From: Ruminococcus sp.
GTDB lineage: Bacteria > Bacillota > Clostridia > Oscillospirales > Ruminococcaceae
Assembly: GCA_017397925.1 (NCBI GenBank)
Contig: JAFQHO010000006.1
Span: 32,719 to 96,718 of the forward strand
Direction: 5' to 3'
Length of the DNA: 64,000 nucleotides
The position numbers and the translations under genes were made by a program. How positions within the stretch are numbered: the stretch's first letter is position 1; every line of letters begins with the position of its first letter. Below, piece after piece: positions 3 through 15,388 of the stretch. The notes beneath the pieces are model-generated. The model was not told the origin of the DNA and searched no databases. It was given only the letters and a program-made list of their open reading frames with translations.

Positions 3-3000
3 AAATTGACAGATGCCATGAAGTACAAGAAGAATGGCGAAGTATACACCATAACACTTAACGAAGCTTCAAACTGGACAGGTGCTTTCGAGGATGTTGA
101 GGTAAAGTATCTAGATGAATCTGACGGAAAATACAAGGATTATTACTATTACATCAAGGAAGCAACCATTGAAAACTATGCAACAACATATGAAACTAAA
201 CCCGATGGTACATTAATTGTAAATAATACTCTTGAAACAGTAGAAATTCCTGTTCAAAAGCATTGGGCCAATGATACCGGTCAAGAGATTGCGTATCCGG
301 AAAACATTACAGTTCAGCTTCAGATGCTTGTTGACAATGACGGTTCAGGTCCTGCAATTCCACAATGGGAGGATGTTCCTGATAAGTTACTTACTTTAAC
401 ACAGGCAGGCGAATGGAAGGGAACTTTCAGTGGTCTTGCCAAAGGTCATTCCTATCGTGTTAAGGAAGCTTCTGTAAAGATAGGTTGGCAGGTTGATGAT
501 AGCCTTACGGATATTGTTACAGTAGATGAAAATGGTAATATCAGTGAGCAGAAAGGTTCAGTTGATAACACTCTTGAAATCACAAATAAACCCCAGGCAG
601 AAAACCTTTCTAACCTGGAAATTCAGAAGTTGTGGGATTCATATGAGAACTTACCTGATTCAATCAAAGTAAGATTATTCCGAAAGACTCTATACGCAAC
701 ATATCCAATAGGTCAGCCGGCTACAAGTGTTACAAATGAGGATGGTTCAGTTACTGTAGGCGTTCAGGATGACTACGCAAGACTTCTCCAATATTCGCTC
801 TACTTCTACGACGCAAATATGTGTGGCGATACTGCGGCAGAAAACAGTGCAATAGCATGGCGTGGTGATTGTCATACAGACGATGAAATAAAGGGTGGCT
901 TCCACGATGCAGGTGACCATGTAATGTTTGGTTTACCACAGGGTTATTCAGCATCAATGCTTGGATGGAGCTTTTACGAATTTAAGGACGCATATGACGA
1001 ACTTAATCAGACAGAACATATTAAGAAAATTACTGAACATTTCTGTGACTTCTTTGTTCAAGCTGCTCATTTTGTAGACGGGAACGAAGAAAATGCAATA
1101 TCTGAAATCCTTGTTCAAAAGGGTGCAGGAAATCCTGACCATCAGTACTGGGGACCTCCCGAAAACCAACCTTCTCGAAACGATTCAGTAACATTAACTG
1201 ATGACGGAAGAGGTGCAACAGGCTGGAATAACGGTCAATGGACTCTTGATAATGAAATGTTCTGGACAAGTAGCGGCGGTGATATAGCAGCTGAATATGC
1301 AGCAGCTCTGGCTCTTGCTTACTTGAATTTCAATGATGGTTCTGATAAGTATAGTAATTATCTCGCAATGGCAGAAAAGTTTTATCAGTTTGCACAGGGA
1401 AAAGGTGTACTTGACGATTGGGGTATTAACAAGGACGAACTTGCAACGATACAGCAATATCCCGGTTTCTATAAATCTGATGGAGCTGATGATGACAGAG
1501 CTTGGGCAGCAGGTTGGTTATACTTAGCGACGGGCAGAAATAATAATGATTACAAAACAGCTTGTTTCAATCTTGATAATGATGTTGGAAGCTGGGCATT
1601 CAGCTGGAATGACGTTAAACTTGCAGCTGCTTGTGTAAGCGCTCATGTTAATAGTAATGATAAAGCTGACCCATGGAAAAAGGTAAGAGAATACGTTAGC
1701 GGTAAAGCCGGTGATGGTTTTTACCGCCCCGAAGCTAATAATTGTTGGGGTACTGCAAGATATAATGCGGCATTACAGATGGCGGCTCTTGCTTTAACTA
1801 AAAACGATTCACAGTCTGATTATAAAAACTGGGCAAAAGCACAGATGGCTATGATTCTTGGTAATAATAATTGGAACGGCGGAAAATCAGTTTGCTTGGT
1901 AACAGGCTTCGCTGAAAACTCTGCTAAGTATGCACACCACAGAGCTGCTTCAGGTTGGCAGAGCCTTGAGGAATATAAAAATCCTGCTCATACAACTTAT
2001 GCTGCAGATAGTCAGACGTTAATCGGTGCAATGGTTGGTGGTCCGTACTTCGGAGCTCATACTGATGCTCAAATGACGAATTACGGTCATAAAAATCTTT
2101 TAGAATCTCATAATTATCTGGATGACCTCCACGACTACTGCTGTAACGAAGTTGCTCTCGACTATCAGGCAGGTCTTGTAGGTGCAGCAGCAGGTCTTTA
2201 TCACTTCTTTAAAACCGGTAGTACGTTTGAAATCCCAGGCAATAGCATTGAAACACAGTATGTAACTGCTTCTGCTGCAAGTATTCCGACATTGTTAATG
2301 GGGCCACAGGTGGTTTCAATGCAGAAAACTGCGGTTAGTGTGTTGGCAGCTGGAGATGAAATGTGCTATCCTGCGTTAGAAGCTGGTGAAGCTAAGCATG
2401 TATTCCAAAATAAAGACGGTGATTCAAAGACTTACTCTGGTACAATTTATGATAATGTTACAAGAATAGAAATTGATCTCGGTTGTTCAAACAGTAGCAA
2501 AAATGTTTGGAATGATGATTTCGGTGGTATGGAATTTGAATATACAGAGATTGAATCAAATGGAAATTCAAAATCTGTAAATACAGGTTGGATGCAAAAT
2601 CCGTCAAATAATGGCGGCTTTTCACGAATGCGCTCTATATCATTTGATGAACCTAAGACCATTTCTCAATTAAGATTTCATAATGTAAAATGGTGGAATG
2701 GTGGCGATAATATAATTATTGAAGAAATTCGTTTATATTATGAATCATCAGGTCCCTCAATAAGCTCACCAAAATCAACAATAGCAGTTGGCGATAGCAT
2801 GACACTTACCTACAGTGAAGCTGGTGTTACTCCAAATTGGAGCGTTGATGATACTAATTTAGCAACAATTGATAGTAACGGTCAACTTACAGCAAAGGCT
2901 GCAGGAACAGTTGTAGTTACAGCAAATGAAGCTACTAAGAATATTATCATTGAAGAGCTTGAAATCGGCGGTAGCGAAACAATGAAAAAAGACAGCACAC

Positions 3001-4772
3001 AAGAACTTACAATCAACAGTATTAACGGAATAAGCGGTTTTACTTGGAATTCAAGTGATACAAATGTTGTTGAGGTAAATGGAGGTGTTGTAACAGCTAA
3101 GGCTGCAGGTACGGCAACAATTACAGCTACTAATAACGGTTATACCGATACGTTTGATATAACAGTTGTTGATATTCGCTCTGTGACAATTAATGTTAAT
3201 CAGGCATTAAATATTCATAATGGTCCAAAAGAACATACTATTAAATTTGCTAATAATGACGAACCAATATTTAATGGCAATGAAAAAATTATGAATATTA
3301 TAGTGAATTTAAGTGCATCCGGTAACATTAGTACAACTCAGGGTTTATACAGACTTAAGGTAAAACCTGGTACTGGAAATAATCAGGAAAAAGATAAACA
3401 CGAACAAACAAATCAAACATTCAATATAACAATTACCGACGGTAAAGGATCACATAAGATTAATACAAGTGAAATTAATGATATTGATTTAACAAAGGAT
3501 GGACAGTTTGAATTTGGTTCTTGGTACGGTAATCCTGCAGATATTACAATTGATAGCATAGTTATTGAGTATATAATTGACCGTAGGATTACATCCGATA
3601 AGGACACAGTAATGGTTAAACTTCCTGTTAATTTCACTGCGGTAGGCTTTGCGGATAACACAACGTGGACTGTTACCGATGAAAGTGGTACACAGATAAA
3701 TGTTGACAACGCAACAGGCACAGCATTTACATTCACACCAACTGCTGTTGGCACTTATACAATCACAGCAACTGATGAAGGAGGCTCTTTACAAAAAATT
3801 ATAACAGTAACACCATACGAGTTGAAATTTGAAGATAACACTACAGAAAAGGCGTTCACACTTCGTAAAAACAACAGCTTAGATATTGATTTCAATGTCG
3901 AAAGCGACCAGGTAAGCATTACCGAAGTGGATACCGAGTACTTGATAATTAATGGAACAACAGTCAGCGTAAAAGATGATACTCCCGTTGGTACGATAAT
4001 TCACTTCCGGGCAGAGTATATTGGTGATAACAACGCTACTACATTCGCTCTATTAAGGAATGGAAGTGGTTCAGTAGTAACCGGTACAATTGAAGTTTTA
4101 GAAGAATTACAAATCACAGCAGAAGATTTAATTTATAACGGTGAAACAATTGAGCTTTCTGCTAATGGCGATGTTAACTGGTCGATAGAATCAGGTGAAG
4201 AATACGCTTCACTTAACGGCAATAAGCTTACAGGTATCAAAAAGGGTACAGTTGTAGTCAAAGCAACAGACCAAACAGACGGCTCAACAGCTACAATTTC
4301 AATTGCAGTAAAAATCGGAGCAGTTGGTCCCGGATTTGATATATCTAAGGGATATGAGCCTGTACTGGTTGATGGAAAAGAAGTAATCGATATCTTAGCT
4401 TCAGAAGATTGGACAAAGAAAATCACCAATTTAGAGATTAAGGACTCGGACGGCAATTACTATATGTATTTCTTTGCTGAATGTGATCAAACAGGTAAAT
4501 TGATAAGTGGCGGTTCAGGCGACCAGATCGCAGGTAAAAACGGGGCTTGCTTTGTTCCTCTTGAATATCAAAACGGCACAGTACTTACACAAGGCATTTC
4601 CACAGGGCTTTCTGTAAAGAATTCACTTGCAGTTGAAGCTCAAGGCACTCTCCCCTCCACCGGCGGAAGCGGAGTGACGACATATTATTACTTAGGAGGT
4701 GTAATCATGCTTCTGAGTATAGCCGGGTTCACAGGTCTTAAGCGACGTGATAGAAAGCGTCGTAAAGAATAA
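3..4772 (+). CDS. LPXTG-anchored CNA-B adhesin/pilus protein carrying a GH9 cellulase domain (5' partial)
   Basis: The reading frame is open to the left edge, so the N-terminus and signal peptide are missing; 1,588 residues are visible, numbered from the codon at position 6. Order: CNA-B-type beta repeats (about 1-225), a glycoside hydrolase family 9 catalytic domain (about 255-745), a beta-rich carbohydrate-binding-like segment (about 820-915), two Big_2 Ig-like repeats (about 920-1055), a second beta-rich segment, further Ig-like domains, and a sortase signal LPSTG (1549-1553) followed by a hydrophobic helix and a basic tail. GH9 signatures are GGFHDAGDHV (D301, D304), HHRAASGW, and NEVALDY with the expected acid E715, so the enzyme looks intact. 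GH9 enzymes hydrolyse beta-1,4-glucans such as cellulose. It heads the pilus operon, so it is probably a pilus tip or ancillary subunit displaying a cellulase. No dockerin is seen. A wall-anchored enzyme outside the pilus is the alternative. Confidence 0.85.
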   Translation, partial: KLTDAMKYKKNGEVYTITLNEASNWTGAFEDVEVKYLDESDGKYKDYYYYIKEATIENYATTYETKPDGTLIVNNTLETVEIPVQKHWANDTGQEIAYPENITVQLQMLVDNDGSGPAIPQWEDVPDKLLTLTQAGEWKGTFSGLAKGHSYRVKEASVKIGWQVDDSLTDIVTVDENGNISEQKGSVDNTLEITNKPQAENLSNLEIQKLWDSYENLPDSIKVRLFRKTLYATYPIGQPATSVTNEDGSVTVGVQDDYARLLQYSLYFYDANMCGDTAAENSAIAWRGDCHTDDEIKGGFHDAGDHVMFGLPQGYSASMLGWSFYEFKDAYDELNQTEHIKKITEHFCDFFVQAAHFVDGNEENAISEILVQKGAGNPDHQYWGPPENQPSRNDSVTLTDDGRGATGWNNGQWTLDNEMFWTSSGGDIAAEYAAALALAYLNFNDGSDKYSNYLAMAEKFYQFAQGKGVLDDWGINKDELATIQQYPGFYKSDGADDDRAWAAGWLYLATGRNNNDYKTACFNLDNDVGSWAFSWNDVKLAAACVSAHVNSNDKADPWKKVREYVSGKAGDGFYRPEANNCWGTARYNAALQMAALALTKNDSQSDYKNWAKAQMAMILGNNNWNGGKSVCLVTGFAENSAKYAHHRAASGWQSLEEYKNPAHTTYAADSQTLIGAMVGGPYFGAHTDAQMTNYGHKNLLESHNYLDDLHDYCCNEVALDYQAGLVGAAAGLYHFFKTGSTFEIPGNSIETQYVTASAASIPTLLMGPQVVSMQKTAVSVLAAGDEMCYPALEAGEAKHVFQNKDGDSKTYSGTIYDNVTRIEIDLGCSNSSKNVWNDDFGGMEFEYTEIESNGNSKSVNTGWMQNPSNNGGFSRMRSISFDEPKTISQLRFHNVKWWNGGDNIIIEEIRLYYESSGPSISSPKSTIAVGDSMTLTYSEAGVTPNWSVDDTNLATIDSNGQLTAKAAGTVVVTANEATKNIIIEELEIGGSETMKKDSTQELTINSINGISGFTWNSSDTNVVEVNGGVVTAKAAGTATITATNNGYTDTFDITVVDIRSVTINVNQALNIHNGPKEHTIKFANNDEPIFNGNEKIMNIIVNLSASGNISTTQGLYRLKVKPGTGNNQEKDKHEQTNQTFNITITDGKGSHKINTSEINDIDLTKDGQFEFGSWYGNPADITIDSIVIEYIIDRRITSDKDTVMVKLPVNFTAVGFADNTTWTVTDESGTQINVDNATGTAFTFTPTAVGTYTITATDEGGSLQKIITVTPYELKFEDNTTEKAFTLRKNNSLDIDFNVESDQVSITEVDTEYLIINGTTVSVKDDTPVGTIIHFRAEYIGDNNATTFALLRNGSGSVVTGTIEVLEELQITAEDLIYNGETIELSANGDVNWSIESGEEYASLNGNKLTGIKKGTVVVKATDQTDGSTATISIAVKIGAVGPGFDISKGYEPVLVDGKEVIDILASEDWTKKITNLEIKDSDGNYYMYFFAECDQTGKLISGGSGDQIAGKNGACFVPLEYQNGTVLTQGISTGLSVKNSLAVEAQGTLPSTGGSGVTTYYYLGGVIMLLSIAGFTGLKRRDRKRRKE

Positions 4773-4883: not shown

Positions 4884-6788
4884 ATGAAAAAAACTAACAA
4901 AACTTTTAAGAGATTCGCAGCCATCACTTCCGCTTCACTTTTAGCAGCTTGTGCTGTTGCTCCAGCTTTTACATCTGCTGAAGACAAACCATTCACTATT
5001 ACAGTTAATGAGACAGAAACAGGACATGAGTATTCTGCTTATCAGATTTTTAAAGGTACTGTAGACGGAAACACAATGACAGGTATTACATGGGGCGACG
5101 GAGTAAACTCAGCTACAGTTACTGGTGCAAATAACGATTTAATTGATGAGCTTAACGCATTAACAATTGGTACCCCAGATATTTTTGAAGGATTAAGTGA
5201 TGCAGCATCAGTTGCTAATGCAATTTCACAGCTCGCAAATGGTGATTCTAATGTATATGGTGATCTTGATAAGGTAGCTACTGTTTTTGCAAAGTATGCG
5301 GCTACTGCTAAAGCAACATCTTCATACGCTGAAAGCAAATATACATTGAGTTTTACAAATTCGGATGATGCTGATAAAGGTTATTATCTCGTACTTGATG
5401 GAGAAAAAGGTGATGGTTCCAAAGCTATATCAAAGTATATCCTTAAAGTTCTAGGTGATTCTGAAATAACTGTTAAAAAAGACGCTCCTGAGGTAATAAA
5501 GAAAATCAAGGAAAATGATTATAATGGTGACACGCCAACATTTGATGGCGAAGAAATGTCAACCGATGTTGGATATAACGATACAGCTGACTATTGTATA
5601 GGTGATTATGTTCCATTTAAGCTTTATGGTTCATTACCTTCAACACTTGGAAATTATGAAAAATATAAGTATGTGTTCCATGATACAATGGACGAACAGT
5701 TTGGTAACCCAGAAAATGTTGTAGTAAAAATTAAGGTTGAAGGTACATGGTATTATGTTAAAGAAGTTAACACTATAGCTGATGCTACTGGATATAAGAA
5801 AACTATAGCAGAAAATAATAATGATATGGATATTAGCTTTGCAGATATTAAAAATGTTAATCTTTATACGGATGCAGAATGTACTACGCTGGCTGTGACT
5901 GGAGGAACTTCACCTGTTGCAATAAGACCTAATGCTAATAGCATAGTAACAGTTGAATATGATGCTCAGCTTAAATCTAGTGCAGAGTTAGGTACTCCAG
6001 GTCAGAAAAATGCTGTTAAGCTTGAATATGCATATAATTCAAACTATAGATTTGAGGGCGATGGTATTGGTGATGATGATGCTGAGGAAGAGTATAATGA
6101 AACACCTACAACTGAAACACCTTTTGATACTGTTATCGCTTTCACATATCAGCTCGATTTAACAAAGGTTGATGGCAAGAATCCGGACAAAACACTTAAG
6201 GATGCTAATTTTGTACTTAGAAGAACTGTTGATACCGCAACACAGTATGCTGTACTTGAGGGCAGCACAATCGTAGATTGGGTAAGTCCAACTGGAACAG
6301 TTACGATAGATACTGATGCAGGTACAATTGCTTCTTCTGCTGGATGGACACCTGTTAACTCAACTGAAGAAGGTTTAGTTCCAACAGTTGTAACAACTCC
6401 CGAAGATGGTAAATTCAGCTTTATCGGATTAGATGCTGATGAATATGAACTCGTCGAAATAAAGGCACCATCAGGATACAAGATTCCTGAAACAGGTAAG
6501 GTATTTGCTCTTGAAGTTGAAGCTGATACATCAAACTCTCAGAACGATTCTGCTATAGATGGTACTGAGTTAATATCATTAACATTGAACGGCACAGAAG
6601 GAAAATTGGCTGATGGTAATTTAGAAACTGGCGTTCTTGCTACACAGATTACCAATACATCAAGCGCAGAACTCCCCGGCACTGGTGGTATCGGTACAAC
6701 AATCTTCTACCTTGGCGGTGGTGCAATGGCTGCAATCGGCGGCATTTACCTCATTTCCAAGAGAAGAATGAGAAAGTCTGAGGAATAA
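4884..6788 (+). CDS. Major pilin, isopeptide-forming LPXTG fimbrial protein
   Basis: This 634-residue secreted protein has a Sec signal peptide (basic start, then a hydrophobic stretch ending near residue 32 at FTSA), pilin-type beta domains, and a C-terminal sorting signal LPGTGG followed by a membrane helix and the tail KRRMRKSEE. An E-box-like motif YELVEIKAPSGYK near residue 525 is typical of CNA-B/SpaA domains that form internal Lys-Asn isopeptide bonds. Size and domain make-up fit the shaft subunit of a sortase-assembled pilus, polymerised by the class C sortase encoded directly downstream. The ATG follows AAAGGAG with 7-base spacing. The order adhesin, pilin, sortase C, minor pilin, sortase is typical of Firmicute pilus islands. 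The pilin-motif lysine was not firmly assigned; VKKDAPEV near residue 196 is a candidate. Confidence 0.88.
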   Translation: MKKTNKTFKRFAAITSASLLAACAVAPAFTSAEDKPFTITVNETETGHEYSAYQIFKGTVDGNTMTGITWGDGVNSATVTGANNDLIDELNALTIGTPDIFEGLSDAASVANAISQLANGDSNVYGDLDKVATVFAKYAATAKATSSYAESKYTLSFTNSDDADKGYYLVLDGEKGDGSKAISKYILKVLGDSEITVKKDAPEVIKKIKENDYNGDTPTFDGEEMSTDVGYNDTADYCIGDYVPFKLYGSLPSTLGNYEKYKYVFHDTMDEQFGNPENVVVKIKVEGTWYYVKEVNTIADATGYKKTIAENNNDMDISFADIKNVNLYTDAECTTLAVTGGTSPVAIRPNANSIVTVEYDAQLKSSAELGTPGQKNAVKLEYAYNSNYRFEGDGIGDDDAEEEYNETPTTETPFDTVIAFTYQLDLTKVDGKNPDKTLKDANFVLRRTVDTATQYAVLEGSTIVDWVSPTGTVTIDTDAGTIASSAGWTPVNSTEEGLVPTVVTTPEDGKFSFIGLDADEYELVEIKAPSGYKIPETGKVFALEVEADTSNSQNDSAIDGTELISLTLNGTEGKLADGNLETGVLATQITNTSSAELPGTGGIGTTIFYLGGGAMAAIGGIYLISKRRMRKSEE

Positions 6789-6901: not shown

Positions 6902-7789
6902 ATGAAGAAAAAAATCAATAAAGCAAGCTTATTTACAACAATATTTTTTACATTAATGCTGTTCGTGGGAGTCTCCGTGATGCTTTACCCAATCGTAAGC
7001 GATTGGTGGAACTCCAAGGTACAAAGCCGAGCAGTTGCCAACTATGAAGTGGCAGTTGCCAATATGGACACAAGCAGAACAGACAGAATGATTGAAAAGG
7101 CAAATGAGTATAACAAGAAAATCGCCCGACTTGAAGCACCTTTCGTGGATTTCGACAAGGTTGCGGGCTATGACTCAATCCTCAATATTTCAGGTACGGG
7201 AGTTATGGGCTATATTTCAATTCCTGTAATTCAGGTTGAATTGCCTATCTACCACGGCACAAGTGAAGAAGTTCTGAATATTGCCGCAGGTCATCTCGAG
7301 GGTTCATCCCTCCCAGTAGGCGGAGCGAATACCCATTCAGTAATATCCGCCCACAGAGGATTGCCCTCAGCACGACTTTTCACCGACCTTGACAAAATCG
7401 AAAAAGGCGATGTATTCACAGTCAACATTCTCGACCGAATTTATACCTATGAGGTTGAGGAAATACTCATTGTAGAGCCTCACGAAATTAACACGCTTTC
7501 AATTATCCCCAACAGCGATTATGTAACACTTATGACTTGTACCCCCTACGGTATCAACACACACCGTTTGCTGATACGCTCACACCGTATCGAAACCGTG
7601 TACAAGAAAGAGTACAGAGTTGTTGCGGAAATGGTAAAAATTGACCCTATGCTTGTAATTCCGTTTATCTGCGCTCCATTTGTATTAATACTGGTGTGCT
7701 ATTGGGTATTCGGCGGCAAGCGTAAACCGAAATCACCACGAGAAATTGCAGCACGTCTGATACTGGACGGAAGGGAGGTTGTAAAATGA
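6902..7789 (+). CDS. Class C (pilin-polymerising) sortase
   Basis: This 295-residue membrane transpeptidase has an N-terminal membrane helix (about 10-32), a sortase beta-barrel, and a C-terminal membrane helix (about 248-270) with a basic tail; the second helix is typical of class C. Catalytic residues are visible: His in SAHRG (about 151), Cys in TLMTCTPYGINTHR (about 212) and the following Arg. Class C sortases cleave the LPXTG signal of the shaft pilin between Thr and Gly and join it to a lysine of the next pilin, building the covalent pilus outside the membrane. The gene follows the pilin, and its stop overlaps the ATG of the next gene (ATGA), indicating translational coupling. The ATG is preceded by GGGAGG. 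Confidence 0.93.
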   Translation: MKKKINKASLFTTIFFTLMLFVGVSVMLYPIVSDWWNSKVQSRAVANYEVAVANMDTSRTDRMIEKANEYNKKIARLEAPFVDFDKVAGYDSILNISGTGVMGYISIPVIQVELPIYHGTSEEVLNIAAGHLEGSSLPVGGANTHSVISAHRGLPSARLFTDLDKIEKGDVFTVNILDRIYTYEVEEILIVEPHEINTLSIIPNSDYVTLMTCTPYGINTHRLLIRSHRIETVYKKEYRVVAEMVKIDPMLVIPFICAPFVLILVCYWVFGGKRKPKSPREIAARLILDGREVVK

Positions 7790-8910
7790 CAACAGCGAGA
7801 AAAAGAATCGGCGCTGTGCTAATAGTTACAGGTATGATGATTATGTTCTGCCTTAGCTGTATGTGTACTGTTGCCTCGGCTAAAACAAATGGAACGCTGA
7901 CTCTTATATGCGAATGTGAAAATCAGCCTGTAAAAGGCATAGATTGGAGTCTTTACCGAATCGGCTCTTATGACGGAGAAAAAATTATTCTTGAAGGTGA
8001 ATTTGCAAATCTTCCTGTTGACATGAGAGATCTTTCCGCCTCAGGACTTGCAGATGCTGCATCAACTCTGGACGGCTATGCCTGTGTTTACAAGTATAAA
8101 ACAACGGATACTGCAAAAACTAAAAAGGACGGCACAGTTCAGCTTAAATTTGATGAAGCAGGAGCGTATCTCATAGTTGGAAGTTATGTCGTAGACGGTA
8201 ACACAAGATATTATCCAACTCCTGCAATTTTCATTCTTGACCCTGAAAAGGAAACTGAAACAACTATATATCCAAAAATTAAAAAGGATGACGTTGTTGA
8301 CGGCGGAATAAATGAATATCATCTTATGAAAATCTGGAATAACGAAGATGATGAAAATGCTGTATATACTGAAATCATAGTAGATATTTACCGTGATTCA
8401 AAGTATTATAAAACGGTAACTCTTTCTAAAGAGAATAACTGGAGTTATTTTTGGGAATCAGATGAGTATCATAAATGGACAATGATTGAACGCAAGATTC
8501 CGAAAGAGTACGCTGTAATTTACAGAGAAAACGGCAAGCAGTATATAGTTGTCAATGTATACGTTCCTGATTTTGATTTTGACTGGGAATTGAATTTCCC
8601 ACCTCCTGTAGCCGAGGAGCAGACAACTACAACTACAACCGATGTTACAACAACAGACGGTACAACAGCTGAAACTACTACAACAGCAACTGAAACTACA
8701 ACTACAACAGAAGATATCGCTGCACAGGCTTCAAAAACAACAACTCAAACAACACAAAAAGTTACAACCAAGAAAACTACCACAACAAGCAAGCTTCCGC
8801 AGACGGGACAGTTATGGTGGCCTGTGCCTGTAATGGCAATTGGCGGTCTTGTACTTGTTGCAACAGGTGCGAGAATAATCAGCGGTTCTAAGAGGGACGA
8901 AGATGAATAA
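7786..8910 (+). CDS. Minor/basal LPXTG pilin with Thr-rich stalk
   Basis: This 374-residue secreted protein has a signal peptide ending near residue 33 (VASA), two CNA-B/SpaA-like beta domains (about 35-265), a Thr-rich, low-complexity stalk (about 275-340), and a sorting signal LPQTG (about 341) with a membrane helix and the tail SGSKRDEDE. A Pro-rich patch (FPPPVAEEQ) precedes the stalk. Size, single stalk and position between two sortases fit a basal pilin that is moved to the cell wall to anchor the shaft. The Thr stalk is written in ACA/ACT/ACC codons and is a slippage-prone trinucleotide tract. Start overlaps the end of the class C sortase gene, and its stop overlaps the start of the next sortase. 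Confidence 0.82.
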   Translation: MTTARKRIGAVLIVTGMMIMFCLSCMCTVASAKTNGTLTLICECENQPVKGIDWSLYRIGSYDGEKIILEGEFANLPVDMRDLSASGLADAASTLDGYACVYKYKTTDTAKTKKDGTVQLKFDEAGAYLIVGSYVVDGNTRYYPTPAIFILDPEKETETTIYPKIKKDDVVDGGINEYHLMKIWNNEDDENAVYTEIIVDIYRDSKYYKTVTLSKENNWSYFWESDEYHKWTMIERKIPKEYAVIYRENGKQYIVVNVYVPDFDFDWELNFPPPVAEEQTTTTTTDVTTTDGTTAETTTTATETTTTTEDIAAQASKTTTQTTQKVTTKKTTTTSKLPQTGQLWWPVPVMAIGGLVLVATGARIISGSKRDEDE

Positions 8911-9547
8911 AAAACACGGATTATTTTGTGTAGTACTTGGGACATTGCTGCTAATAGCGGCAATGTCCCTTGTTTTCTACAACAGGCATGAAAATAAAAA
9001 AAGCGGTGAGGCTGCGGAAACGGTTCTAATGGAGCTTGTGGAGGTAATTCCTGCACAGCCGCCAACTGAGCCGCCTACGGAAATTCCTACAGCAGGGGAT
9101 ATTCTTGCAGAATATGACATTGAGCCTACGACTGTTCCCAAAGAGGAAACAACAGTTGTAATCGCTGAAAACGGCTATATCGGAATAGTGAAAATTCCCG
9201 ATTTACAGCTTGAACTGCCGGTTATGAGCGATTGGAGCTACCCGAAGCTGAATATTGCACCCTGCCGATACAAGGGAAGTGTAGCCGAGGGAGATATCAT
9301 CATAGCGGCACACAACTATTGGTCACATTTCGGCAGATTGTCGGAGTTGGGCGGCGGTGAGGTGTTCACATTCACCGAGGCTGACGGCACAGTTCACAAA
9401 TACGAGATTACGGAGATTATCCAGCTTGACGGCAGGGATATTGAGGGTATGGATTTCGGCTCTGCGGAGTCGTGGGATATGACGCTGTTCACCTGTACTC
9501 TCAGTGGTCAGAGCAGAGTTACTGTTCGAGGTGTTGAAATAGAATAA
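8903..9547 (+). CDS. Second sortase, single-membrane-helix type (class A/D/E-like)
   Basis: This 214-residue protein has one N-terminal membrane helix (about 6-24), a Pro/Thr/Glu-rich linker (about 45-80) and a compact sortase domain. Catalytic His lies in AAHNYW (about 136) and Cys in LFTCTLSG (about 197), followed by QSRVTVR with the conserved Arg. It lacks the C-terminal membrane helix of class C, so it is probably the housekeeping-type enzyme of the locus that transfers the basal pilin, and with it the finished pilus, to peptidoglycan. The exact class cannot be fixed by eye. It overlaps the preceding pilin gene by 8 bases and is followed directly by a strong terminator, marking the end of the pilus operon. 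Confidence 0.85.
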   Translation: MNKKHGLFCVVLGTLLLIAAMSLVFYNRHENKKSGEAAETVLMELVEVIPAQPPTEPPTEIPTAGDILAEYDIEPTTVPKEETTVVIAENGYIGIVKIPDLQLELPVMSDWSYPKLNIAPCRYKGSVAEGDIIIAAHNYWSHFGRLSELGGGEVFTFTEADGTVHKYEITEIIQLDGRDIEGMDFGSAESWDMTLFTCTLSGQSRVTVRGVEIE

Positions 9548-9548
9548 C

Positions 9549-9588
9549 AAAAATCCCCTGTGTCGGAAAATCCGATACGGGGGATTTT
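9549..9588 (+). terminator. Rho-independent terminator of the pilus operon
   Basis: AAAATCCCC and GTCGGA pair with TCCGA and GGGGATTTT to form a long near-perfect stem directly after the sortase stop codon, ending in a T-rich arm. It may act in both directions. Confidence 0.85.
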
Positions 9589-10613: not shown

Positions 10614-12209
10614 TTATGAGTTATAATTGAATTTTTCTATATTACAGCTATGCTCTTTTGCTTTTTCATCATAATTAATACCAACCAGAAGAATATCGCC
10701 GCCGTAATTCTGAATCGAATCACAGTAGCCTTTTTCTTTAATCTGCTCAATTGCACCGCCTGCGGAATGATTCCATTTCAGCTCAATTAACAGTGCAGGC
10801 TTGCGGGATTTCTTCTTCGGGAAGAACAGAATATCTGCATACCCCTTGCCACTCGGTAATTCCTGAAATGTTGTGTAATCGTCCACTCTGCTTACATAGG
10901 CAAGCATAATGACCATTCTGAGGGCTTGCTCGTTGTTGTAGAACTGCGATGTGGTATAATACTGATGTGCAAGCTGAATTCGCTTTGCAACCTCGTCACC
11001 ATCCATACGGAGAGTGGCTTCAATCAGTTTGTCGGATTCCTGTATCAGATTCGCAAGCTCAGGTCTGCTGCTGTTTCTTGTCGTGCGGAGGAACTCCTCA
11101 CGCACTTCTTCATTCGGAATATATACTGAACGTTCTTCACCATTATACGCCAAATAACCGAGATGCACAAGCAACGTCAGAACATCATCACGGGATTTGA
11201 TGGTTACCATATCATTCTGGAATGTTTTAGTGTCAATCTTCACAGAACCGCCAGCCAGCATTTCCGCAAGTGAGTCCTTGACTTTATCGTAATTGATGTC
11301 AATATATAATAAAAGCGATTCATAAGTTTCAGTTTTTGTCCAGTAACTGCCGAATTCTCCGTTATTCATGGCATTAATCACAGAATTGGGGCTATAAACA
11401 GACTTCACACGATTAAAGGAATATCCATCATACCAACGCTTGCATTCATCAAAGTCCATATTATAACGCTCACACAAATCCTGCACTTCATCTTCGGTGA
11501 AACCGATATACTCCGCCAACCTATATGGCTGAACCATTGTATATTCATCAAAATTATTTAATGCAGACTGTGTACCATATTTCTTGATGGGTAAAATACC
11601 TGTAATGTACGCAAACTTGATGAAGGCATCGGATGACGCATTTTTAAACATACCACGGAGAAAGTTCACATATTCTGCCTGAATTTTTTCGTTATCCTTG
11701 TCTTCACGGAACAGACAATCCCATTCATCGATGATGACGATGAATTGTTCTCCAATACGAATGAAAATATCACCCAATGCTCTTGGCAGGATTGTTTCAG
11801 TTTCAGAAAGAATCCCCGGAAACACTTCACGCAATTCATTGATAATCACAGTCTGCATATAGGATACAACTTCTGGCATTTTGTTATCATTATGCACAAT
11901 GCTGCGAAACTCCTGCATATCAATAAATATAACTGTATTTTTATTCAACTCATCCTCAAAGGTCGGCAGTCCCGCAATTTTCAGCTTTGAGAAGATTTCT
12001 CTGGAATCGCAGCCTTTACTGTAATATGCTGTCAGCATATGCGCCGCTATGGACTTTCCGAAACGGCGCGGTCGGCTGAAACAGATGAGCGGACGCATTC
12101 TTCCGATTCTGTTATTTGTAAATTCAATTAAACCGGATTTGTCAACGTAGGTGTCATCTCCTGCAACAATCGCAAATGCCTTATTTCCGGGATTTACATA
12201 CTTTCCCAT
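10614..12209 (-). CDS. AAA-ATPase-like protein with C-terminal PD-(D/E)XK nuclease domain
   Basis: This 531-residue protein belongs to the widespread AAA-ATPase_like/DUF1703 family. The N-terminal half has an atypical Walker A (SRPRRFGKSIAAHML, about 45-60) and Walker B IIDEWD (about 165). The C-terminal part ends in a nuclease-like core with GYADILFF and LLIELKW, giving the D...ExK pattern of PD-(D/E)XK enzymes. The family is common in gut Bacteroidetes and Clostridia; its function is not established, and defence or mobile-element roles have been suggested. The start was moved to the ATG ten bases after GGAG because a GTG three codons upstream sits directly on the ribosome site. It has its own promoter and is separated from the restriction gene pair. 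Confidence 0.82.
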   Translation of the reverse strand: MGKYVNPGNKAFAIVAGDDTYVDKSGLIEFTNNRIGRMRPLICFSRPRRFGKSIAAHMLTAYYSKGCDSREIFSKLKIAGLPTFEDELNKNTVIFIDMQEFRSIVHNDNKMPEVVSYMQTVIINELREVFPGILSETETILPRALGDIFIRIGEQFIVIIDEWDCLFREDKDNEKIQAEYVNFLRGMFKNASSDAFIKFAYITGILPIKKYGTQSALNNFDEYTMVQPYRLAEYIGFTEDEVQDLCERYNMDFDECKRWYDGYSFNRVKSVYSPNSVINAMNNGEFGSYWTKTETYESLLLYIDINYDKVKDSLAEMLAGGSVKIDTKTFQNDMVTIKSRDDVLTLLVHLGYLAYNGEERSVYIPNEEVREEFLRTTRNSSRPELANLIQESDKLIEATLRMDGDEVAKRIQLAHQYYTTSQFYNNEQALRMVIMLAYVSRVDDYTTFQELPSGKGYADILFFPKKKSRKPALLIELKWNHSAGGAIEQIKEKGYCDSIQNYGGDILLVGINYDEKAKEHSCNIEKFNYNS

Positions 12210-12238
12210 ACGGCACACGCTCCTTTCCTATTATTGAT

Positions 12239-12506: not shown

Positions 12507-15287
12507 TCATTCTGTTAATTTGCGATACATCCCCATAAGCTCCGCCACGCACTCGCTCTCGGTGATATTCCTTGCAAAGCCATACGCCTGCATCACGGCG
12601 AAGTCATTTGCCTGATGAGCCTTACGGAGTTCGGGCGGCATAGTAAGTTCATCGTAGAGGTCGGCGAGGGAGCAGTCGGGGTATTTCGCTCTTGCGTCGA
12701 GGATTGCCTGTGCGGTCTGCTCGATTTTCACTTTCTGTTCGGGGGTGGGGTTGCACCATGGGAAGTTGTTGTAGACGATGTTTATAGAATAGCGATAGTC
12801 GCTTTTTAATCTTCCGCAGACAGTACGCATCCAAGACATATGAACATTAGACGTAAGAACACCGAAATGATAAATTGTTGCATTTGGTACAAATGAAGCA
12901 GCATTGCTTGCTATTACATCTTTGTTTACATATCCTATTGGTATATATCGTCTGTTTTCAGATGATGTCGCAGGAACTAAAATATAATCTGTTTCTGGCT
13001 GTTTTATCTCCATAAATCTTGTTGGATAATCCGCAAATTTACGTGTTGCTTCTTTTACGCTTTCCAAACGAAAATTTCTTACCGCTTCTACCCTTTCACG
13101 AACTAATGGCATACTTCTTAAATCACTTGGAGGGCATTTAATTAACCACAAGCACCAACGAGGATGATTGTTTATGTAATCATCAGAGCCTACAAATGCT
13201 CTGAAATATTTAGCGGATTTAGGCTCTTTCTTTATAAATTCATCTTTTTCCTCGCTTGTAAATATTAAATGCCCACCTTCAACGGGTTTTCCGCCACTTG
13301 ACATTTTAGGAACATCACAAATAGGTTTAGATTGAGTTTCAACAAATACATTTACGGCATCAACAAGGAAAGGATTGATATTCTCCACAACCTTAACCGC
13401 ACCATTATCAAAAATTTGTTTCTGAGCGTTGTTTTCAGCAATACTGAAACCAACAATTACAACGTGGACGTGTGCCTTTAAGCTTGCTTCGCTATCCCAA
13501 CGGAAAGTGCGATGTGCAAAATCAATATGAATGCCGAAACGCTCAAAGAGTGGTTTCCATGCACCTGCAACCTGTTCGCCCTGTGTGATACTGTTTGTGG
13601 AAACAAAAGCCGTGCGGATTGCGGTATTCTCCATAAGCTGTGCCGCCTTGAAATACCAGCCCGCCACATAGTCAATCTTGCCTGCGGTCTTATAGGGTTT
13701 TCCCTTGTCATCCACATAAACACAAAGAATGTCGTTCTTCTGGTCTTTTGTCTGCAATGAATACCCCACAAACGGCGGATTACCCATAATATAATTCAGC
13801 TCATTTTTAGGCACAACGCTCTCCCAATCCACACGAAGCGCATTGCCCTCCACAATATTGGCATAGCTTTTCAGCGGCAGAAAATCAAGGCTCATCTGCA
13901 CGATTTCCTCGGTTTCCTTCATCATCTGACTTTCCGCAATCCACAACGCAGTTTTCGCAACCGTCACCGCAAAATCGTTGATTTCAATACCGTAGAACTG
14001 CCCGATTGATACCTTAATCGGACTGAAATCGCCGTCACCAAACATCATCTGTCCTTGATTCAGCTCATAGAGAATATCATTTTCAAGTCGGCGCAAGGAA
14101 ATATAAGTTTCCGTAAGGAAGTTTCCGCTTCCGCAAGCAGGGTCAAGGAATGTAAGTGTGCTGAGCTTTTTCTGAAAATCATCCAGCTTATTCTTGCGGA
14201 CATTCGACTGTTTTGCCTCCTTGATTTCCTCAAATTCAGCCTTTAACTCATCAAGGAAAAGTGGGTCGATAACCTTGTGGATATTCTCAATGGAGGTGTA
14301 GTGCATACCGCCGCTACGACGAGTTTCGGGGTTGAGAGTTGATTCAAAAACCGCACCGAAAATAGTCGGGGAAATCTCCGACCAGTCGAAGTCTTCACTT
14401 GCATTTTCAAGAAGAACGCTCATAATTTCTTCCGTGAAATTTGGGATTTCAATGTTCTCGTCAGCGAACAAACCGCCGTTGACATAAGGAAATTCAGAGA
14501 GTGCCGTTTCGTCATAAGGGTCACGCTCGTTAATTGGTGTATCAAGAATTTTGAACAGCTCAATCAAAGCCTTACGCACCTGTTTCACATCAAAGGCTTT
14601 CAGATAATCATGGAACATCTGATGCTTGCCGAAAATACCTGCGTCTTCTGCATAAAGGCAGAAAACAAGACGCACGCAGAGGATATTGAGGCTGTGCAAA
14701 GATTCCGCAGAATCGGGGTTTTTATACTGCTTGATAAGTGCGTCATAAAGCTTGCCAACAAGCGCACCCGCCTCCAAAGAAACACGCATTTCACTTTTCA
14801 AAAGCTCGCTACCTGTGTCAACAAGGAATTTCAGACGGTAGGCTTCTTTCGGCAGGTCTTTGAGGAAAATCTGCTCCGGCTCAGCGTTAGGCTTACTCAT
14901 ATTATAAATGAGGATTTCGGTGAAGTTTGAAACAATAATCCACTTTGCTTTTTCCTCATAGGGAAGATAGCTGTTGTAACGGAATGCCTGTCCGTAAGGT
15001 GTGAGGTTTTCGCCATCAGACTGGGTAGCAGTACGGCGTAGAGAAATATGGGATCCTTTCTGCTCAATAAGAACTTTTGTTGAAGGGATATATCCGTCAA
15101 TATATTTCTGATTTTTCGCCACAATAACAGGCTTTTCAAACTCAATTATCGAAGTAGGGTCGTCTACGCCCAGAACCTTGCCGAGCAGGTCGAGCCAGTA
15201 ATGCTGGGTTTCCTGTTTTTCGTTGCCTTTGTCTTTCCAGTATTCAGCGAATTTCTTTGCTGCGGATTTTTGTTCTTTTTCGGTCAT
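12507..15287 (-). CDS. MmeI-like type IIL/IIG restriction-modification enzyme
   Basis: This 926-residue single-chain enzyme joins endonuclease and adenine methyltransferase. The N-terminus has a PD-(D/E)XK site (YIDGYI about 63, then LIEQKG about 74), followed by a helical linker. The methyltransferase core has motif I DPACGSGNFL (about 380) and motif IV NPPFVG (about 500). The C-terminal part should be the target-recognition domain. Such enzymes methylate one strand of an asymmetric site and cut unmethylated DNA at a distance, so no separate methylase is needed. A start 19 codons upstream exists in the sequence, but the ATG at 15287 has AGGAGAA at good spacing and matches the family N-terminus. 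Its presence next to a prophage suggests exclusion of other phages. Confidence 0.88.
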   Translation of the reverse strand: MTEKEQKSAAKKFAEYWKDKGNEKQETQHYWLDLLGKVLGVDDPTSIIEFEKPVIVAKNQKYIDGYIPSTKVLIEQKGSHISLRRTATQSDGENLTPYGQAFRYNSYLPYEEKAKWIIVSNFTEILIYNMSKPNAEPEQIFLKDLPKEAYRLKFLVDTGSELLKSEMRVSLEAGALVGKLYDALIKQYKNPDSAESLHSLNILCVRLVFCLYAEDAGIFGKHQMFHDYLKAFDVKQVRKALIELFKILDTPINERDPYDETALSEFPYVNGGLFADENIEIPNFTEEIMSVLLENASEDFDWSEISPTIFGAVFESTLNPETRRSGGMHYTSIENIHKVIDPLFLDELKAEFEEIKEAKQSNVRKNKLDDFQKKLSTLTFLDPACGSGNFLTETYISLRRLENDILYELNQGQMMFGDGDFSPIKVSIGQFYGIEINDFAVTVAKTALWIAESQMMKETEEIVQMSLDFLPLKSYANIVEGNALRVDWESVVPKNELNYIMGNPPFVGYSLQTKDQKNDILCVYVDDKGKPYKTAGKIDYVAGWYFKAAQLMENTAIRTAFVSTNSITQGEQVAGAWKPLFERFGIHIDFAHRTFRWDSEASLKAHVHVVIVGFSIAENNAQKQIFDNGAVKVVENINPFLVDAVNVFVETQSKPICDVPKMSSGGKPVEGGHLIFTSEEKDEFIKKEPKSAKYFRAFVGSDDYINNHPRWCLWLIKCPPSDLRSMPLVRERVEAVRNFRLESVKEATRKFADYPTRFMEIKQPETDYILVPATSSENRRYIPIGYVNKDVIASNAASFVPNATIYHFGVLTSNVHMSWMRTVCGRLKSDYRYSINIVYNNFPWCNPTPEQKVKIEQTAQAILDARAKYPDCSLADLYDELTMPPELRKAHQANDFAVMQAYGFARNITESECVAELMGMYRKLTE

Positions 15288-15315
15288 AGCTGTTCTCCTA
15301 TCCGATATAAAATAA

Positions 15316-15388
15316 GGCTCAGAACAGCGTTCCGTCTGAGCCATTTTTTCTCATATACAATTATACCATATCCGGGTGGGATTTTCAA
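15316..15388 (-). promoter_or_regulatory. Promoter and leader hairpin of the MmeI-like gene
   Basis: On the - strand, TTGAAA (15383-15388), a 17-base spacer and TATAAT (15360-15365), preceded by TGG, form a near-consensus promoter. The transcript would start near 15353 and immediately contain a hairpin (GGCTCAGA, 11-base loop, TCTGAGCC; 15316-15342) followed by a T-rich stretch, before the SD. The hairpin may attenuate restriction expression or end read-through from the YolD operon. On the + strand the same stem is followed by six Ts, so it may terminate both ways. Confidence 0.65.

Follow-up and report, generated by a model that had tools for sequence, protein, structure and literature searches.

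Introduction

SpaA-type pili, which are built by class C sortases, carry tip adhesins, the pneumococcal RrgA-B-C system being one example. In RrgA the binding domain is itself inserted into stalk domains; neither sortase pili nor nested tip adhesins are without precedent. Type IV pili represent an assembly system unrelated to sortase pili. The ruminococcal locus described here resembles the loci of SpaA-type pili in its operon content, its sorting signals, its CnaB stalk and the position of its largest gene, which comes first among the pilin genes. It differs from RrgA in that the nested module of its giant protein is a GH9 domain (in relatives, a GDSL esterase or a CBM4_9 module), and in that the giant is several times longer.

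In the portions of the literature available to us, the attack of ruminococci on fibre is ascribed to cellulosomes, CBM37 enzymes, the glycocalyx and type IV pili. Three papers (PMC4300822, PMC3672088, PMC8092306) connect type IV pili of R. albus and R. flavefaciens with adhesion to cellulose, and their likeness to our locus would lie in the use of pili for attachment to fibre. The R. flavefaciens cellulosome, with its ScaE sortase anchor and its dockerin-bearing GH9 enzymes, likewise displays GH9 on the surface, in the same genus and through a sortase anchoring step. In contrast to it, the enzyme of the giant belongs to the anchored chain itself, in which no dockerin or cohesin was found by a Pfam scan of the full protein. 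Sortase (LPXTA) anchors are also found on five of the six GH5/GH9 endoglucanases that Bacillus cellulosilyticus secretes, which are thus held at the cell by a sorting signal although the organism has no pilin genes (PMC3617157). Fibrillar adhesins and ligand-binding modules inserted in split domains, as outlined in extracts of two papers (PMC9210967, PMC12077191), share with the giant a long stalk, a terminal adhesive domain and modules that emerge from split domains, but the giant has a catalytic module in its split domain and is encoded in a pilus operon. The Bpr_I0893-I0898 cluster of Butyrivibrio proteoclasticus, also a rumen fibre degrader, has the same gene content, namely a signal peptidase, three LPxTG proteins and two sortases, and the passages available on it mention no enzyme (PMC2914790).

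Among the titles and abstract beginnings of the matches listed in the open-licence papers searched, we found no description of a hydrolase built into the tip of a sortase pilus, a result that holds for these papers and does not establish absence from print. Sortase-anchored endoglucanases have been described (PMC3617157). Here, we analysed a window of 64,000 nucleotides from a Ruminococcus genome and propose, with a probability of roughly 0.6 for display on a pilus and enzymatic activity taken together, that it encodes part of a pilus-tip adhesin that would present a looped-out plant-wall enzyme. If this holds, ruminococci would have a further way of attacking fibre, a sortase pilus into which a cellulase or esterase is built and which combines grip and cut on one covalent chain.

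Results and Discussion

The giant gene is the second gene of a pilus operon

The window corresponds to G000:C8:32719-96718 of a 2.71 Mb draft genome in 87 contigs. An open reading frame lacking its 5' end had been reported at positions 3..4772 (+), and the whole-genome look-up confirmed it: the frame runs upstream of the window as an open frame of 3,990 codons that holds the GH9 domain. The full gene (G000:C8:25524-37490) encodes 3,988 amino acids, about 7.2 kb of it lying upstream of the window, and positions 3..4772 represent its 3' 40% (residues 2400-3988). Judging by the ribosome-binding site, the giant would start from a GTG 9 bases later than C8:25524.

The operon is composed, in this order, of the genes for signal peptidase I, the giant, the major pilin, a class C sortase, a minor pilin and a second sortase. 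The initial annotation was right that the giant belongs to a pilus operon with two sortases but not that it heads this operon, as the signal peptidase I gene comes first. The major pilin (4884..6788, +; 634 aa, LPGTG) matched RrgB_K2N_iso_D2 with 48.5 bits (cut-off 30) and the SpaH/EbpB subfamily model with 66.2 bits, under the cut-off of 95. Its residues K198, K206, N385 and E525 were kept in all 18 aligned pilins, a pattern that does not single out the acceptor lysine. The class C, pilin-polymerising sortase (6902..7789, +; 295 aa) scored 272.8 bits with NCBIfam NF033745 (cut-off 160). The product of the next gene (7786..8910, +; 374 aa), with a Thr-rich tail and an LPQTG motif, matched no Pfam family and had only NCBIfam matches under cut-off; it is probably the base pilin. 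The second sortase (8903..9547, +; 214 aa; Pfam Sortase, 47.9 bits) is left without a class.

Two bases after the last operon gene there is a terminator-like hairpin of 18 pairs (9550..9588, +). Its stem is the longest of the 4 such sites in the window, where shuffling predicted 9.2, and a hairpin of this kind is not evidence by itself. Rfam gave no match over 3.2 kb around the operon start, and promoter-like sites were no commoner than in shuffled sequence. Past the operon, an AAA-ATPase-like gene (10614-12218, -) and a large DNA-methylase-like gene (12507-15344, -) were recognised by eye on the other strand. About 8 kb upstream of the giant start, a transglutaminase-like protein with a dockerin-like C-terminus is encoded (L009:128-1342, i.e., C8:17127-18341; by eye).

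Modules of the giant protein

The GH9 catalytic domain (residues 2657-3127; 774..2186, +) scored 275.8 bits with Pfam against a cut-off of 27.7, which excludes a chance match, and the alignment covered positions 1-443 of the 444 of the profile. Solved GH9 enzymes aligned at the catalytic residues, and the alignment with them showed the motifs WRGDCH, HDAGDHV, HHR and NEVALDY. The catalytic residues listed in the initial annotation as D301, D304 and E715 are present, with the numbering one off; in the full protein they are the catalytic aspartates D2701 (906-908, +) and D2704 (915-917, +) and the acid E3115 (2148-2150, +).

The N-terminus of the giant begins with a hydrophobic segment, and a dedicated signal peptidase gene adjoins. 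A pAdhesive_15 domain follows at residues 165-596 (70.1 bits, cut-off 23.8), then a SpaA match at 2088-2166, and the best Cna_B match falls on an intact CnaB stalk domain at 2481-2562 (246..491, +; 35.3 bits). Two NCBIfam models were also matched, TIGR04215 with 52.8 bits (cut-off 29) and LPXTG_anchor with 19.7 bits (cut-off 15.9). With an adhesive domain over cut-off, stalk repeats and an anchor, the giant has the features of a fibrillar adhesin of the pAdhesive_15/choice-of-anchor A type. A model of the N-terminal domain, computed from 14 sequences, reached a mean pLDDT of 78.8 and a pTM of 0.87, and in Foldseek ranks 1-25 were all taken by ice-binding or antifreeze proteins. Two of these hits reached E ≤0.001, the best being 3e-4, and the TM-scores were low, at 0.13-0.23 by the length of the model. 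Matches came from the fold search alone, as a PDB sequence search with this domain gave nothing useful. The model thus points to an ice-binding-like fold, in agreement with the Pfam label, and such a domain at the N-terminus would complete the layout of a tip adhesin.

Two carbohydrate-binding-like segments had been proposed after the catalytic domain, of which one resembles a solved carbohydrate-binding module and the other stays without assignment. The latter is a beta-rich module (residues 3165-3327; 2298..2786, +); its assignment as a CBM was rejected after an unconvincing sequence search and a poor fold prediction (pLDDT 60). Relatives of it were found in 4 other genomes of 125, always in frames of more than 2,000 aa. 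An Ig-like Big_2 region follows (residues 3325-3465; 2778..3200, +), with the best Pfam stretch at 3407-3448. The module at residues 3473-3590 (3222..3575, +) is a weak match, at E 4e-4, to the PDB entries 4d3l, 4v1k and 4v1l, which we take to be CBM79 of an R. flavefaciens GH9, and the Pfam family DUF5620 scored 18.8 bits over residues 3490-3587, under the cut-off of 25. Relatives of this CBM79/DUF5620-like module occur in 23 other genomes. The frames that encode them span 302-936 aa, and a GH9 domain is also present in many of these.

The chain ends in an LPSTG sorting motif (residues 3949-3953; 4650..4664, +), followed by a hydrophobic stretch and a basic tail. The recovered full-length protein thus has neither a dockerin, according to Pfam, nor a different kind of anchor, either of which would have spoken against the initial annotation. 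The sorting motifs differ among giants, MPSAGG and LPEAGG being seen in others.

A split CnaB domain frames the predicted enzyme cassette

The CnaB domain that adjoins the sorting signal is split, and its two halves enclose the stretch from GH9 to the CBM-like module, about 1,280 residues long. The first half (residues 2603-2628; 612..689, +) includes K2608 of the predicted isopeptide bond, and the second (residues ~3860-3941; 4383..4628, +) includes E3892 and N3939. K2608 and W2610 are invariant across 16 giants. The beginning of the CnaB domain, a stretch like K-x-W ... L-Y-R, precedes each GH9, and its end, W...Y-x-Y-Y-x-x-E...L-S-V-x-N, lies 6-11 residues ahead of the sorting motif. When halves were searched alone, those that matched divided the Cna_B profile between them, first halves covering positions 2/3-29 and second halves 34/38-69/75; the first half of the window protein, one of three first halves tested, gave no Cna_B match by itself. 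Joined, the halves exceeded the Cna_B cut-off of 22.3 bits in all four constructs, with 28.4, 49.0 and 40.8 bits for GH9 tips and 52.4 bits for a GDSL tip.

The Lys, on one flank of the enzyme stretch, and the Glu and Asn, on the other, were found in 18/18 tips with both halves, using motif patterns picked after reading the sequences, and the spacing between Lys and Glu ranged from 633 to 1,374 residues. Similar halves flank the CBM4_9 module in three CBM4_9 tips (by eye). These sequences predict that the enzyme cassette loops out from a single stalk domain, which is probably locked by an isopeptide bond. Such a slot would be a natural site for the display of folded enzymes of ~220 to 500 residues together with their binding modules.

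Relatives of the giant and conservation of its GH9 domain

Searches with GH9 and with the N-terminal part detected a tip-type GH9 in at least 22 of the 125 genomes of the genus, among them metagenome genomes from the gut of water buffalo, sheep, roe deer, water deer and horse. In 12 of the 22 (the source genome and 11 others) a complete giant lies between the signal peptidase and pilin/SrtC genes, ten of them with all six genes; the remaining loci are cut by contig ends or unlinked to the operon. Pfam found pAdhesive_15 and GH9 together in each of the 16 giants scanned, and the N-terminal profile picked out 32 loci in the genome contigs. That unrelated genes were fused by an assembly error, a concern with a draft genome in 87 contigs, is a negligible possibility and was rejected, since the same type of giant recurs in 22 independent genomes, 12 times complete and in the operon, including that of R. 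flavefaciens FD-1. At the level of the family, GH9 was detected at E ≤1e-60 in 11/297 genomes, two of these matches being in frames of more than 1,000 aa, both within the genus; at the level of the order, the N-terminal profile was found in 7/394 genomes, five of them outside the genus.

In the alignment of the 22 tip-type GH9 domains, both D2701 and D2704 were kept in all 22, as was the Arg of the H-x-R motif (R3046), with its His kept in 20. The acid E3115 was retained in 20 of the 21 domains that reach this position, the domain of L064 ending with its contig before it. The claim that the key GH9 residues are intact was right for the giant and extends to nearly all of its relatives, in which roughly half of the GH9 residues vary between species. 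The exception, G381 (L073:1660-9411), has Gly in place of the acid Glu (NGIG instead of NEVA) and has lost the motif His, with both Asp retained; it is a probable non-catalytic derivative.

In a quick tree of 50 GH9 domains, the 22 tip domains fell on one side of a single branch (SH-aLRT 98), and the 28 free ones, mostly taken from the best matches of the genome, family and genus searches, on the other. The simplest reading of this separation is a single origin of the tip GH9s.

The module in the slot varies between operons

A further 40 regions were retrieved, centred on the top matches to class C sortase. In these and the loci described above, 30 operons had a complete giant directly between the signal peptidase and pilin/SrtC genes. 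Its module was GH9 in 12 operons, a GDSL-type esterase in 4 and CBM4_9 in 7, and the other 7 had none of the three. Seven operons had no giant between the signal peptidase and pilin genes. The Pfam tally of 18 GH9-less giants, which comprised 17 operon giants and that of L152, encoded on the other strand beside the operon (L083 was scanned separately), gave GDSL in 4 and CBM4_9 in 7. The GDS and DxxH motifs are kept in all four GDSL tips (by eye). No catalytic domain was detected in the seven tips lacking GH9, GDSL and CBM4_9, either by a PDB sequence search for two of them (L143 and L158) or by the Pfam scan for the other five.

These data bear on the question of whether the GH9 domain serves mainly for binding, recognising glucan chains with little or no turnover, in a protein that is purely an adhesin. 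The loss of the catalytic Glu in G381 and the presence of a binding module, CBM4_9, in 7 of the 18 GH9-less giants would fit such a role. However, the acid is kept in 20/21 and the Asp pair in 22/22 domains in spite of the variation of about half of the residues, and the GDSL tips retain their motifs in 4/4, so we regard pure binding as quite unlikely and favour a catalytic function of the looped-out domain.

A tree of sortases with 38 rows requires six changes to account for the 14 GH9-type operons, at least three of them forced by well-supported branches. Although the GH9 domains form one clade, these changes suggest that tips move from one operon to another or are repeatedly lost. Among the best 40 pairs of tips, those of the GH9, GDSL and other types matched at the N-terminal 50-100 and C-terminal 100-150 residues and in the CnaB repeats, and those of the CBM4_9 type at the N-terminus only. 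Over long stretches, the giants L140 and L141 share 46-50% identity; missing from L141 are ~345 residues that in L140 hold a CnaB domain split by the GDSL module. The shared design, with GH9 or another plant-wall module in related species, suggests that the pilus may both grip and cut fibre.

Several loci were unusual in their arrangement. The CBM4_9-type operons L160, L163, L165 and L168 have a separate GH9 gene ~3 kb past the minor pilin gene, which in L168 is split over two frames. In genome G135 (L081, L082, L147, L144-L146), class C sortase/pilin loci number at least four, and GDSL esterase domains are present in three giants.

Display on the pilus or at the cell wall

By analogy with class C sortase pili, we propose that the class C sortase would join the LPSTG of the giant to the first major pilin, with the adhesive domain pointing outward; the major pilin would polymerise below the giant, and the Thr-rich LPQTG protein would end at the wall. 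The isopeptide bond of Lys, Glu and Asn would close the loop of the split CnaB domain, the adhesive domain and the CBM would hold the fibre, and the looped-out GH9 would hydrolyse beta-1,4-glucan within reach. The slot itself would act as a plug-in site, used in relatives for a GDSL esterase or CBM4_9 instead. Contrary to the initial annotation, the GH9 domain would not be placed at the very tip of the pilus: about 2,650 residues of the chain lie distal to it, and the enzyme loops out of the CnaB domain that adjoins the sorting signal.

The main rival to this mechanism is direct wall anchoring, in which the second or a housekeeping sortase would link single giants to peptidoglycan as fibrillar adhesin-enzymes, while the neighbouring genes build a separate pilus. 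A chain of 3,988 residues would be long enough to reach out alone, the sorting signals vary, and Bacillus cellulosilyticus anchors endoglucanases by LPXTA although it has no pilin genes (PMC3617157). Moreover, three genomes (G302, G366 and G415, with L075, L076 and L072, respectively) encode a GH9 giant with a sorting signal away from the pilus operon. Nevertheless, 12 GH9 loci and 18 loci with other tip types have the giant placed between signal peptidase and pilin/SrtC, and another product of the operon, the LPQTG protein, would already suit attachment at the wall. We therefore consider direct anchoring unlikely, though the most serious of the alternatives, and prefer display on the pilus. 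As to the three genomes, G302 and G415 have a separate pilus operon without a giant, the operon contig of G366 ends too soon to tell, and the GH9 giant of G415 is split over two frames.

The enzyme might also act in release, trimming fibre held by the tip so that cells detach and move on rather than feed. The enzyme and the adhesive domain are on one chain, ~2,000 residues apart, and nine other GH9 matches in the genome could serve digestion; sequence, for its part, cannot separate release from feeding. We rate a release function as improbable, slightly more so than pure binding, and retain fibre attack as the preferred role of the displayed enzyme.

The putative catalytic pilus and the cellulosome

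Cohesins are encoded in the source genome (6 matches, 4 of them over cut-off), as is a GH9 whose C-terminus looks dockerin-like by eye; the pilus would therefore operate alongside a cellulosome. The contrast with cellulosomal enzymes drawn in the initial annotation thus applies to the giant, which is without a dockerin, but is not exclusive for the genome. In a study of gnotobiotic sheep, the top 15 CAZyme transcripts of R. flavefaciens by expression, taken at the level of the species, were all dockerin-encoding (PMC8092306). This counts among the points against the proposal, and a large role of the tip GH9 in vivo is thus unproven. Somewhat less probable than not, in our estimate, is the wider picture of a catalytic platform beside the cellulosome, in which GH9, GDSL esterase and CBM4_9 would be plugged into an isopeptide-locked CnaB loop and swapped between species, so that a filament that grips fibre would also edit it.

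R. flavefaciens FD-1, a cultured strain in which this route is open to test, is among the carriers of GH9 giants (ACOK01000091, 55,704 bases, G298:C29; giant at L077:2197-9609). The main text of the FD-1 genome paper does not contain the words 'sortase', 'pili' and 'LPXTG', and of the 12 GH9s accounted for in its passages, CBM3c accompanies five, CBM4 another five and an unassigned module the other two. The tip GH9 of FD-1 is circularly permuted: profile positions 42-430 match residues 1453-1841 and positions 3-44 match residues 1871-1912 (487 and 65 bits), i.e., the N-terminal piece of the domain sits after its C-terminus, ~30 residues on. Such a permutation is what insertion as a loop would allow, and the permuted domain keeps intact catalytic motifs.
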